Source: Spirochaetota bacterium | GTDB taxonomy: Bacteria > Spirochaetota > Spirochaetia > Treponematales > UBA12059 | Assembly: GCA_026398615.1 (NCBI GenBank) | Contig: JAPLSN010000024.1 | Span: 61,984 to 125,983 of the forward strand | Reading direction: 5' to 3' | DNA length: 64,000 bases | Part shown: positions 3,032 to 8,769 of the stretch, in pieces | Position numbering within the stretch: the stretch's first letter is position 1 | Layout: every line of letters starts with the position of its first letter | The notes under the pieces: generated by a model | Database searches by the model: none | The model's input: the letters and a program-made list of their open reading frames with translations, nothing else | Told to the model about the DNA's origin: nothing | Made by a program: the position numbers and the translations under genes

Positions 3032-4144
3032 ATGGACGGCAGGCAAGTCCAGCGGTACATTTTCCTCGGGCTCTTCCTCTTCCTCTTCGTGCTGACGGCG
3101 GTGCTGTTCTACCCGTTCATGTCGATCCTGCTCTGGTCGGGAGTGCTGTACGTCATCACCCTGCCCATCTACAACCGCATCGTCAAGCGCAAGCGCCTCG
3201 TCCAGCGGCACCCGGTCTTCCGGAGCATCGTCGCGGGAGTCATGGCCACGCTCTGCATGATCATCGTCGTGATCCCGACGGTCCTCATCGGGATCACCGT
3301 CATCGTCCAGCTGAAGGAATTCGTCCAGACGCTCTCCCGCTTCCTCGAGGCGAACCGGCATGTCTTCGAAACCGTCAAGGGAGAATCCATCGCGGCCCTC
3401 ATCATGGACCAGACGGCCGGCTTCATCGACCTCAGGAACATCGACATCCGGGTCGAACTGACGAAACTCCTGACGAGCAGCGCTTCGAGTATCTTCTCCT
3501 TCTCGTCGGCAGCCTTCCGCAACCTGCTCGGCTTCGGTTTTTCGCTGACCTTCCTCGTCTTCACGCTGTTCTTCCTCTACCTCGACGGGGACTATCTCGT
3601 CTCCACCCTCATCGACATGGTCCCCATCGACCGGCGCTACACGGTGGCCTTCCTCCGGCGTTTCAGGGACACGGCCAGGCACCTCGTCCGGGGATACCTG
3701 CTCGTCGCGCTCTACCAGGGCGTCGCGGCTTTCGTGATCTTCGGCATCTTCCAGGTGACGAGCCCGGTCTTCCTCGCCGTGCTCGTGTCGCTCACCTCAT
3801 TCGTCCCGATGGTCGGCACGGCCCTGGTCTGGGCCCCGGTCACGATCGGCCGCTTCATCTCCGGCGACTTCGCGGGAGGCATCGCGCTCGGACTGACCTG
3901 CGCGTTCTTCATCTCGATCGTGGACAACTTCCTGCGCCCCTTCCTCCTGCACGAAAAGATCAAGATCCATCCCCTGCTCATCTTTTTCGCGATCCTGGGC
4001 GGCATCCGCATGTTCGGCGTGAACGGCATCCTCATCGGCCCGATCGTGCTCATCCTGTTCTTCGCAGCCATCGAACTCTTCGAGGAAGCCTTCGGCAAGC
4101 GCAAGGAACGGAAAGTCGGCCCCTACGACGACCCGCGCCACTGA
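3032..4144 (+). CDS. AI-2E family (PerM-like) transporter
   Basis: Multiple TM segments with ...LTSFVPMVGTALVWAPVTIGRFISGDFAGGIALG... and C-terminal ...LIFFAILGGIRMFGVNGILIGPIVL. Confidence 0.85.
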   Translation: MDGRQVQRYIFLGLFLFLFVLTAVLFYPFMSILLWSGVLYVITLPIYNRIVKRKRLVQRHPVFRSIVAGVMATLCMIIVVIPTVLIGITVIVQLKEFVQTLSRFLEANRHVFETVKGESIAALIMDQTAGFIDLRNIDIRVELTKLLTSSASSIFSFSSAAFRNLLGFGFSLTFLVFTLFFLYLDGDYLVSTLIDMVPIDRRYTVAFLRRFRDTARHLVRGYLLVALYQGVAAFVIFGIFQVTSPVFLAVLVSLTSFVPMVGTALVWAPVTIGRFISGDFAGGIALGLTCAFFISIVDNFLRPFLLHEKIKIHPLLIFFAILGGIRMFGVNGILIGPIVLILFFAAIELFEEAFGKRKERKVGPYDDPRH

Positions 4145-4153
4145 CGATCCGCC

Positions 4154-4325
4154 GAGCGCGGCGACGAGGCGTATCATGAACCGGGCCGGATGGGGCCTGG
4201 TAGCGGGATATGCTTGAGCGCGGCGACGAAGCGGGCCATGGACCGAACTGGACGGGTCTGGTACATGGGATCGGGATGATCGCGGCGACGAAGCGGGTCA
4301 TGGAACGGGCCGGACGGGGCCTGGC
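4154..4325. repeat. Three tandem copies of a ~62 bp-period repeat (GAGCGCGGCGACGAAGCGGGYCATGGAMCG...)
   Basis: Copies start at 4154, 4216 and 4278 (exact 62 bp spacing); a fourth dispersed copy is at about 23130-23175. Confidence 0.8.
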
Positions 4326-4371
4326 GAAGAAAAAACAGGGGTCGGCGGGGCGACTCCTGTTTTTTTTCGCC
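4323..4371. terminator. Long bidirectional terminator hairpin
   Basis: GGCGAAGAAAAAACAGGGGTCG / CGACTCCTGTTTTTTTTCGCC inverted repeat between convergent genes. Confidence 0.75.
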
Positions 4372-4422
4372 ACCCGTCGTGTCGGCGTTTCTCGGTCCGG
4401 CGGTGGCCGGGTTCATTGCCAT

Positions 4423-4785
4423 TCACGCCGCGGGGCGCGCCGTGGCGATTTCCGCGAGTTGGTCGTTCGTGAAGACGGCATAGACCGGCACGCCCTGGGC
4501 TTCGGCCATTTCCTTCCTGAGCGCCCGCAGTTTCACGAACAGCCTGAAATCCGTTTCGCTCAGGATTTCCCGATAGTCCGTCCTGCCCTGTCGTCCCTTG
4601 TCAGCTTCGGTCTTGCCATTGACGAGGTATTCGACCGAATATGCCCAGTGGGAACCGTCGCCGGTCGATACGAATTCCTGCGTGACGCGAACCGGGGAAT
4701 GGCTTCGAAGGAATTTGTTGAAAACGGCGGCTTCATCGCTGTCCGGAAGGCCCGGAATTTTGAAAACCGCATACTGTATGCTCAT
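4423..4785 (-). CDS. HRDC domain protein of the DGR-accessory type
   Basis: 120 aa: ...FNKFLRSHSPVRVTQEFVSTGDGSHWAYSVEYLVNG...DYREILSETDFRLFVKLRALRKEMAEAQGVPVYAVFTNDQLAEIA; C-terminal HRDC-like segment, gene directly downstream of a VR-like target gene. Confidence 0.75.
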   Translation of the reverse strand: MSIQYAVFKIPGLPDSDEAAVFNKFLRSHSPVRVTQEFVSTGDGSHWAYSVEYLVNGKTEADKGRQGRTDYREILSETDFRLFVKLRALRKEMAEAQGVPVYAVFTNDQLAEIATARPAA

Positions 4786-4948: not shown

Positions 4949-7630
4949 TCAGAACTGGGGGCGCACGAGGCGGAAGCCCATGTCGTCGATCCGGCCGCGC
5001 GGGAGGCCGCAGTACCGATTGGCCGACCGGAGGTACAGACCGTCGTAGCGCCAGCCACCGCCGCGAGCCACGCGTTCGTCGCCCGCGGCCGCGCCCCGAG
5101 GGTTGATCTGGTTTCCAGTCGCATACACGCCATACCAGTCCCAGCACCATTCCCAGACATTCCCGTGCAGGTCATACAGCCCCCAGGCGTTCTTCGCGTA
5201 GCTTCCAACCGGACTCGTCTTTTCCAGATACGGGCCTTTCGGAGCGCCATTATAGGGGTAATCGCCATGGAAATTCGCCTGGCTGGAACCCAGCCCGTTC
5301 CCGAACGACGTCGCCGTCTTCGTCCCCGCACGGCACGCGTACTCCCACTCGGCCTCCGTCGGCAGGCGGTAGCCGTTCGCCGTCCAATCGCAGCGCACGT
5401 CCGTCCCGCTCACCGTGTACGCGGGTTTCAATCCTTCCTTTTTCGAGCGCCAGTTGCAGTATTCGATGCAGTCATACCAACTGACCAGCACGACGGGTTG
5501 GCGATCGGTTTGGGCAAAATAGGGATACCTCCAGTTCGCGTCCTCTTTCACAACCCACTCCGCACCGGAGAACACATACCCGCCGCCCTCCCGCTCCGCC
5601 TGCGTCTCGTAGCCCGTCTCGGCCGCGAATGCGCGGAATTCCCCGACGGTCACTTCGTACGCCCCCATCCAGAAGGTGCCCATCGTCACCTGGCGCTGGA
5701 CTTCGTCGGACTCACGGCTCGGCTCGCTGGCCGGGCTGCCCATCGTGAAGGTACCCCCGGGGATCTTCACGAAACCCTGGGTGGCGCGTTCGGGGGCCGC
5801 GGCGGCGGGGGTCGGGGCGGGCGTCTGGTCCTTGAGTTCCAGCTTGAGGATGCTCGTCTGGCCTTCCCGCACCGTGACGCGGGCGGCAGCGGCATACTTC
5901 CTGCCGCCGATCGTGGCACTCGCACCCAGGTCGTAGTCCCCGACGAGGGCTTCGCACTCCAGCGGGGCGCTCCCGATCTTCACGCCGCCCAGGGTGAGCT
6001 CCGCGTCGGTGTCGGGGTTCGTGGTCACTTCAAGGATGCCCATCCTGCCTGAAAACGCGGCCGTTCTTTTCTCCGTGCCGCCCTTGGAGGCGGGCTTCAC
6101 CGTTTCGTTCCATTCCCTGTAGCGGGTGTCGCCGGGCACCACGCGGACATTCGCGTCGCGGTACGGCAGCTTGACCACGAGGGGCAGGCTGCCCTTCTGC
6201 GCGCCGTCCACGTAGACCGTGCCCGCCATGCCGTTCTTTTCCTTCAGGTCCAGCGTGAAGAAGTTCGGCACCAAGATCAGTTTCATCTTGGTCGTCTTCC
6301 CGTCCTCGATGAGGATGGTCTGGCGTTTCGTGTCGTAGAGCTCCCGGCTCAGCACGAGTTCGTAGTTCCCCGACTTGAGCCGTTCCACGCTCAGGGCGCC
6401 GCCGGACAACGTACCGCGCTTTTCGCCGTTGAGCAGCACCTCCACGCCCTCCGCCGGATCGCAGGTCAGGGTCAGCGACCCGAAGTTGGGCTTCAAGTCC
6501 AGGTTCACAGTCACCTTGGCGTTCGTCACCGTGATCGCCGCGGAAAAGGGATAGTACAGGTAGTTCCGATCCTGGGCTTCCACCCTGTAGCTGCCGGGTT
6601 CGATTTTTTCGCTCAGGGAGGAGGTGTCGCTCCAGGCCCGGACTTCCCGCCCGTCGGCCGACAGCAGCCGGAGGTCCACCTTCACGCCCTCGGGCACCTT
6701 GAACTGGACGAACTGGGCCTTGGCCGTCGGCGCGGCGGCCGGCGCCGCCGTCGGAGACGCGGCATCGGTGGCCATGGCCTGGCTCGATGCAGGCGCGTTC
6801 CCCACCCTGGCCAAAGGCGGCTGCAGGGCGCCTGCGCCCGGGTCGAACACGCCGGGTTGCTGGCTCAAGCCCACGTTGAACGCGTATTCGCTCACGGCGT
6901 CGGGCAGGTAACGCTCGAGTTCGGGGACGCTCAGGTAACCGTCGCGGTTCAAGTCGCCCTCGCCGTTCAGGGCCAACAGGAGGCTCCGCGTGAACAGGCC
7001 GTTCGCGCCCTTGGGATCCTCGTAGCTGGCCTTGCCCTTGCCCGTGGACGTGATCACCACCGCCCGGGAGAGGACCTTCACCTCGCCCACGCCCACCACG
7101 GCCAGGCCCTTGTCCCTGGCCACCGTTTTCTGGCACGCGTCGATCAGGAACACGATGTGCTTCACCTTGCCTTCGAGCGGGGATGCAAGGTCGTCCCGCA
7201 GGGACATGCCCGTCCCGACCGGATTCTTCACTTCCGCGTCGATGGGCAGCAGCCAGCTTTCCCCGTTCCTGTCGTTGATCCCATGGCCGGAAAAGAAGAA
7301 CAGCACCTGGTCGTCCGGCCTGACGATTCCGGACAGGGCTGCCACCCGCTCCAGAATCTTGTTGCGGCTGGGAAAATTCACGTCGGTGTACGGCAGCGCG
7401 CCGGACATCACCGTCACGGCCTTGTAGCCACCGAGCCTGGTCAGGAGCTTCCCGAGGTCCTCCGCGTCGTTCTGCGCCTTCTGCAGCGGCACGAGCCCCG
7501 AGTCGGCGTACTGGTTGATGCCCACGATGATCGCGAACCGCCGGGGTTCCGGGATTGCCTGCGCGCCGGCCAGGGACAGCGCTGACACCAGGAAGCCCGC
7601 GAACGCCATCGCTTTGCACCATGATTTCAT
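4949..7630 (-). CDS. Secreted caspase-like (peptidase C14) + PEGA-repeat + FGE-sulfatase/C-type-lectin-fold protein; putative DGR variable protein
   Basis: Signal peptide; RRFAIIVGINQYADSGL...VLFFFSGHGIND...VFLIDACQ (caspase His/Cys motifs); PEGA-like repeats; GFVKIPGGTFTMGSP...EVTVGEFRAFA...PVVLVSWYDCIEYCNWRS...YRLPTEAEWEYACRAG...GLYDLHGNVWEWCWDWYG...RVARGGGWRYDGLYLRSANRYCGLPRGRIDDMGFRLV. Confidence 0.9.
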   Translation of the reverse strand: MKSWCKAMAFAGFLVSALSLAGAQAIPEPRRFAIIVGINQYADSGLVPLQKAQNDAEDLGKLLTRLGGYKAVTVMSGALPYTDVNFPSRNKILERVAALSGIVRPDDQVLFFFSGHGINDRNGESWLLPIDAEVKNPVGTGMSLRDDLASPLEGKVKHIVFLIDACQKTVARDKGLAVVGVGEVKVLSRAVVITSTGKGKASYEDPKGANGLFTRSLLLALNGEGDLNRDGYLSVPELERYLPDAVSEYAFNVGLSQQPGVFDPGAGALQPPLARVGNAPASSQAMATDAASPTAAPAAAPTAKAQFVQFKVPEGVKVDLRLLSADGREVRAWSDTSSLSEKIEPGSYRVEAQDRNYLYYPFSAAITVTNAKVTVNLDLKPNFGSLTLTCDPAEGVEVLLNGEKRGTLSGGALSVERLKSGNYELVLSRELYDTKRQTILIEDGKTTKMKLILVPNFFTLDLKEKNGMAGTVYVDGAQKGSLPLVVKLPYRDANVRVVPGDTRYREWNETVKPASKGGTEKRTAAFSGRMGILEVTTNPDTDAELTLGGVKIGSAPLECEALVGDYDLGASATIGGRKYAAAARVTVREGQTSILKLELKDQTPAPTPAAAAPERATQGFVKIPGGTFTMGSPASEPSRESDEVQRQVTMGTFWMGAYEVTVGEFRAFAAETGYETQAEREGGGYVFSGAEWVVKEDANWRYPYFAQTDRQPVVLVSWYDCIEYCNWRSKKEGLKPAYTVSGTDVRCDWTANGYRLPTEAEWEYACRAGTKTATSFGNGLGSSQANFHGDYPYNGAPKGPYLEKTSPVGSYAKNAWGLYDLHGNVWEWCWDWYGVYATGNQINPRGAAAGDERVARGGGWRYDGLYLRSANRYCGLPRGRIDDMGFRLVRPQF
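4964..5074 (-). other. Putative DGR variable region (VR) at the 3' end of the FGE/C-lectin domain
   Basis: Between constant blocks RV-RGG-W, LRSANR, P, R and MGFRLV the variable positions are mostly NNC codons (GGC CGC TAC GAC TAC TAC TGC GGC CGC GGC ATC GAC GAC), as expected if derived from AAC codons in a template repeat. Confidence 0.7.
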
Positions 7631-7759: not shown

Positions 7760-7941
7760 ATCTTCGGGTAACGCGGAAACAATCCGGGGTGATGGCCGCG
7801 GCGCCCGCGGAGAGTCGACAGCCTGCGACCCCGGAAACGGCGCGGCGTGTCGGCGCAGGAACCCGGCCACCGCTCGATCACGAACCGTCGACACGACGGG
7901 TGGCGCACCTTCCCGGGAACCCGGGACATGATCAGTCAGGA

Positions 7942-8769
7942 TCAGCGTTCGATCGCCGCGAGATAGCGATCCGATATGTCGAGATCCCCCGCGGTCCTTC
8001 CGAGCATGCGGTCGGGGCGGCTCACGCCGTGGAAGTCGCTGCCCGCCGCGATCCGGAACCCGAACTCGACGCCCATCCGTTCGAGCCGCTCGCAGTGTCC
8101 CCGCTTCGCGGTCGGGTGCCAGGCTTCGATCCCGTCGACGCCGAGTTCCCTCCACGCGGCGAACAGCTCGCGCAGTCGCGTCCACGACACGAAGAGCGAA
8201 AGGGGATGGGCGACGAAAGACAGCCCGCCGGATTTCCCGATCAGGTCCACGGCGGCAGCAAGCTCCAGGCAATCCTTCGCTTCGTACATCGGGCGGCCCT
8301 TGGCGAGATACCTGTCGAAGGCGGCCTGCTTCGTCCGGACCACCTTGAGCTCGACGAGCCGCTTCGCGATGTGCGCCCGTCCCATGCAGGAAGAACCGCT
8401 CGCGGCGACGAGTTCGTCATAATCGATGCCGATGCCTTCGTTGCGCAGGCGCCAGACGATGCGCCGGTTGCGCTCCTCCCGCGAGCGCGCGAGGCCCGCC
8501 AGGGCGCCGGCGAGTTCCGGGGAGACGGCGCCGAGATCCAGGCCCAGCAGGTGGAATTCGCCGGGCATGAAGGCGATTTCTATTTCGACGCCGCGGACGA
8601 GGCGCAGGCCCTTTTCGGCGGCCCGCATACCGGCTTCCTCGAGGCCCGCGACGGTGTCGTGGTCGGTGAGCGCGAGTGCCGCGAGGCGGCGTTCGGCGGC
8701 GAGATCGACGAGGGCGGAGGGGGACAGGGTGCCGTCGCTCGCGCTCGAATGGGAGTGGAGGTCGATCAC
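7942..8769 (-). CDS. PHP domain metal-dependent phosphoesterase
   Basis: VIDLHSHSSASDGTLSPSALVDLAAERRLAALALTDHDTVAGL...GRAHIAKRLVE...SDFHG; GTG start overlaps upstream TGA. Confidence 0.85.
   Translation of the reverse strand: MIDLHSHSSASDGTLSPSALVDLAAERRLAALALTDHDTVAGLEEAGMRAAEKGLRLVRGVEIEIAFMPGEFHLLGLDLGAVSPELAGALAGLARSREERNRRIVWRLRNEGIGIDYDELVAASGSSCMGRAHIAKRLVELKVVRTKQAAFDRYLAKGRPMYEAKDCLELAAAVDLIGKSGGLSFVAHPLSLFVSWTRLRELFAAWRELGVDGIEAWHPTAKRGHCERLERMGVEFGFRIAAGSDFHGVSRPDRMLGRTAGDLDISDRYLAAIER

Follow-up and report, generated by a model that had tools for sequence, protein, structure and literature searches.

The 64-kb window analysed here (C41:61984-125983, from a 125,983-bp contig in a 3.38-Mb draft spirochaete assembly of 43 contigs, 99.08% complete) very probably contains the fossil of a DGR cassette. 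In its original form this would have consisted of an FGE target, an HRDC accessory gene and a reverse transcriptase (RT) gene, possibly followed by a template repeat (TR). It would have been inserted between an AI-2E family transporter gene and a PHP-type gene, and have then lost the 3' part of its HRDC gene, its RT and its TR. What is left is a target gene with its variable repeat (VR), part of an HRDC gene, and a copy of a dispersed repeat in which the HRDC reading frame ends (Table 1). The locus is a degenerate DGR, of a kind already known, and the only oddity about it is the occurrence of two orphan VR fragments elsewhere in the genome. It may serve as a worked case of DGR death, in which a repeat ends the accessory frame, RT and TR vanish, and the diversified target remains as a frozen variant.

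Table 1. Features of the putative degenerate DGR locus and its flanks (positions within the window)
Feature	Position	Strand	Evidence or remarks
AI-2E family transporter gene	3032..4144	+	Pfam PF01594, E 2.7e-46; left flank of insertion site
Dispersed repeat copy: 62-bp tandem units, terminator-like hairpin, end motif CACGCCGCG at 4424-4432	4154..4432	+	
Truncated HRDC-type DGR accessory gene (putative), 120 aa	4423..4785	-	Pfam HRDC, E=2.6e-10; homologue alignment; structure models
Palindrome, A+T-rich and almost perfect, in target–HRDC gap just before HRDC start codon	4797..4838	.	95% match to own reverse complement over 42 bp
Former DGR target gene (putative), 893 aa: caspase, PEGA domains, FGE-sulfatase (C-lectin type)	4949..7630	-	Pfam
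VR core, in common with C31:37119-37220	4955..5056	-	Full VR may reach about 5095 (by comparison with relatives)
Second, inverted copy of dispersed-repeat end, on far side of target gene	7841..7905	-	78% over 65 bp
PHP-type gene	7942..8769	-	Named from sequence reading; right flank of insertion site

An earlier note, made from the sequence without database searches, had described a small protein with an HRDC-like end encoded directly after the VR-bearing gene, and had taken it for a retained HRDC-type DGR accessory. The ORF is where it was reported, and its Pfam match and its homologues agree with the proposed identity. Spirochaete homologues are up to 48% identical (E 1.3e-30), and at about 20 loci they adjoin a DGR-type RT, an FGE target, or both, so that by sequence comparison the gene appears to be a DGR-type HRDC accessory, in truncated form. 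Wherever the HRDC gene is intact and enough contig follows, an RT is nearby. The window protein aligns with these accessories over its whole remaining length, N-terminal domain included. "Retained" is thus correct as to presence but not as to completeness. The protein consists of an N-terminal beta-alpha-beta-beta domain and about half of an HRDC domain, matching positions 2–41 of the 68 in the Pfam profile; its closest homologue in the genome scan (L097, 47%) covers positions 2–68. Of 17 homologues aligned, 16 are between 151 and 178 aa long, the exception being the 109-aa protein of L077.

Predicted structures give the same picture, with the window model ending before the last two HRDC helices of L097. 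The intact C-terminal domain of L097 has the fold of the HRDC domains of RecQ, BLM and WRN (e.g., 1wud, 2rhf), with a TM score of 0.90 on 1wud_A and a sequence match at E 2e-16. Unlike those proteins, the DGR accessories have no helicase part and a separate N-terminal beta-alpha-beta-beta domain, for which a structure search gave no convincing solved match; the window copy also lacks the last helices. The part that remains is otherwise undamaged, with no frameshift or internal stop and with the columns invariant among homologues preserved, so that a recent loss and some retained function are indistinguishable. No HRDC or RT remnant could be read downstream of the frame, in any reading frame.

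Similarity to other HRDC proteins stops just before the end motif of the dispersed repeat. This motif, CACGCCGCG, overlaps the HRDC stop codon (4423–4425) and the last two codons, both for alanine, and is common to the aligned copies of the repeat; the stretch at 4145–4420 has 16 matches across seven contigs of the same genome. The tandem repeats at about 4154–4325, noted earlier as occupying the place where TR and RT would normally lie, are real and belong to this element, but they are not peculiar to the spot. They were considered as a possible TR/RT remnant and rejected as such, being part of a dispersed repeat with these 16 matches and giving no RT or HRDC reading.

The surroundings of the locus were compared with those in relatives. 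The locus lies in the interior of its 126-kb contig, not at an end, and is thus not interrupted by an assembly break. In four genomes of the same family (G346, G324, G064, and G274) the AI-2E and PHP-type genes are direct neighbors, 38–158 bp apart, with the same outer neighbors as in the window and no FGE or HRDC match between them. The 3.8 kb that separates these genes in the window thus appears to have been inserted in this lineage, a direction that we infer from the relatives. As no sister species was found to carry the full cassette here, the sequence of insertion and then loss is likewise read from those with an empty site. While complete, the cassette would have acted on the C-terminal end of the caspase/PEGA/FGE protein, diversifying it. 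The HRDC 3' part, RT, and TR could most simply have been lost through one rearrangement that placed a copy of the dispersed repeat at about codon 118 of the HRDC gene. In two relatives (L068 and L072) the TR lies after the RT, so a single deletion extending outward from the middle of the HRDC gene would remove the HRDC end, RT, and TR together. The VR would now be frozen.

The FGE-sulfatase domain of the target extends to the C-terminus of the protein, and the VR lies at the 3' end of the gene. Its core is 75% identical over 102 bp to an orphan sequence on contig C31 (pair A). The differences in this pair fall mostly at the first two codon positions (12/11/3 at positions 1/2/3), as they do between the VR of an FGE gene on C31 and a fragment on contig C14 (pair B, 12/12/5); ordinary FGE tails differ more evenly (e.g., 18/16/22). 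They are also concentrated on sites that are adenine in the TRs of relatives. For pair A, 19 of 25 adenine sites of the L068 TR differ vs. 7 of 77 other sites (p 3.5e-10), and 22 of 33 adenine sites of the L101 TR vs. 4 of 69 (p 1.4e-10); for pair B, 22 of 32 adenine sites of the L072 TR differ vs. 7 of 70 (p 3.3e-9). These are Fisher tests in which sites are treated as independent and the relatives' TRs stand in for the lost one. As a positive control, mismatches in the relatives' complete TR/VR pairs are nearly all at A (e.g., 16/16, 18/18, and 23/24). Because the pair differences combine the codon pattern with this preference for adenine sites, the VR is taken, on sequence grounds, to be genuine. 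As the adenine pattern in this pair of remaining VR copies shows, former activity of a DGR is still recognizable once RT and TR have been lost.

Neither an RT nor an adenine-rich copy of the VR was found in the window, by an RVT_1 search of the genome and a TR/VR scan respectively, as the earlier note had reported from reading alone. The only RVT_1 match in the whole genome is at C3:1867-2544, and an HRDC-type RT query returns the same gene and no other. It belongs to an Avd-type DGR (L034 = C3:1-6000, at about 490–2916) with bAvd, TR, RT, and an Lcl-type target. The C3 VR differs from its TR at 10 positions in a gapless 53-bp stretch, all of them at A. The 5' end of the Lcl-type target is lost at the contig end, and a TR codon AAG is aligned to TAG in the VR, so that diversification itself apparently created the target's stop codon. 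As a source for the FGE VRs the C3 TR was rejected, there being no meaningful alignment to them, and searches of the assembly by DNA similarity, by pattern (2 mismatches allowed), and with a VR/TR-tail profile returned no other TR for the FGE VR. A TR or RT may have gone unassembled in a draft of 43 contigs that is 99% complete.

A functional cassette would have an RT of the DGR type, a TR matching the VR at its non-adenine sites, and an intact accessory gene. The locus has none of these, the genome's one RT being on C3 and no such TR occurring in window or assembly. It does have a further mark of such a cassette, a VR bearing adenine-directed substitutions at the 3' end of a C-lectin/FGE-type target, as judged indirectly through the relatives' TRs. 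Besides a decayed cassette, which is the reading that this combination of an HRDC gene cut in mid-domain by a dispersed repeat, missing RT and TR, and unbroken contig bears out, the earlier note had offered a target and accessory on which an RT and TR at another site act in trans. There is a complete-looking DGR in the genome from which this could operate, and a precedent in Thiohalocapsa PB-PSB1, where MITE-like repeat arrays have replaced the RT or TR of degenerate loci while the target stays, complete DGR loci are found elsewhere in the genome, and trans diversification has been reported where repeats took the place of the RT (PMC10907252). The present locus resembles these in its preserved target, lost RT and TR, repeats in their place, and a complete-looking DGR elsewhere. 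It differs in having an HRDC accessory whose frame ends in the repeat, and a VR with no matching TR, so that trans activity is not indicated here as it is in Thiohalocapsa. A trans target should have a TR elsewhere that fits it at all non-adenine sites, and none was found; the one RT comes with its own bAvd, TR, and target, and the HRDC partner is truncated. Continued diversification in trans is accordingly regarded as very improbable.

In Thiohalocapsa, structural variants with an intact DGR locus have also been reported alongside degraded ones (PMC10907252), and the present assembly could similarly display just the degraded version in a population where other variants keep an intact HRDC-RT-TR end. 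The undamaged state of the remaining HRDC part is what a recent loss would predict, but the assembly contains a single version, and we consider this explanation unlikely. The same undamaged state might instead mean that selection has preserved the 120-aa protein as a working short version with a different role: the frame is open, all conserved residues of the remaining part are present, and the N-terminal domain is predicted to fold as a beta-alpha-beta-beta unit. However, the frame stops in repeat DNA, partway through a helical domain that is conserved; no close relative has the short form; and other short or broken homologues likewise have no adjacent RT. Selection for a short form is regarded as quite improbable. 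Finally, HRDC domains also occur in RecQ, and an unrelated HRDC protein such as a RecQ fragment might have come to lie beside an ordinary FGE tail. This idea is scarcely credible and was rejected. RecQ itself gives a match of its own in this genome, on C9, the window protein aligns with DGR HRDC accessories through its N-terminal domain as well, and the VR pair signature is not that of ordinary FGE tails.

Among other spirochaetes, damaged HRDC genes recur at three loci, L077 (G015), L082 (G262), and L086 (G031), where they are short, partial, or broken and have no adjacent RT. There are no RVT_1 matches at all in G262 and G031. Two were found elsewhere in G015, but no TR for its orphan loci was found in the stretches of those RT loci that were compared. 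Given this recurrence, remnants consisting of target and accessory with no matching TR should not be read as trans-acting. In G262 a TR/VR pair survives beside the partial HRDC gene (L082:6616-6689 and 6883-6956), in a genome with no RVT_1 match; this locus is another stage of DGR decay.

One of the closest known systems is the DGR of Treponema denticola, with the order target – TR – HRDC – RT, some isolates of which have leftover targets without RT and TR (PMC4891356). One locus in the comparison (G167), assigned to T. denticola from coordinates, has 23 of 24 TR/VR mismatches at A and an HRDC protein of 160 aa; an HRDC match at position 2,304,207 was found in the genome of an order-level relative, and the T. 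denticola HRDC gene has been published at 2,304,072–2,304,554 (PMC4891356). The window locus is similar in having a variable target beside an HRDC accessory gene, but its HRDC domain is reduced to about half, there is no RT or TR, and the target has N-terminal caspase and PEGA domains. By its preserved target and VR, missing RT and TR, and repeats in their stead, it falls among degenerate DGR loci as described for Thiohalocapsa (PMC10907252).

The two orphan VR fragments are in different settings. The 102-bp sequence at C31:37119-37220 (= L003:1501-1602) is of the same type as the window VR but not part of a complete gene, and is located directly after the stop codon of a different FGE gene, itself cut by the contig end. 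It was rejected as a candidate TR, since the codons that vary in it have undergone diversification too and are not rich in adenine. The other, of 120 bp, is at C14:96543-96662 (= L128, about 6043–6162), fused to an unrelated reading frame. By default both are regarded as remains of deleted target genes. They might also be ectopic insertions of mutagenized DGR cDNA, which seems rather unlikely; if this were true, DGR cDNA would be able to insert at sites other than its target. The frame to which the C14 fragment is fused looks like a portion of an ATPase gene, and a long palindrome comes within a few bases after the fragment.
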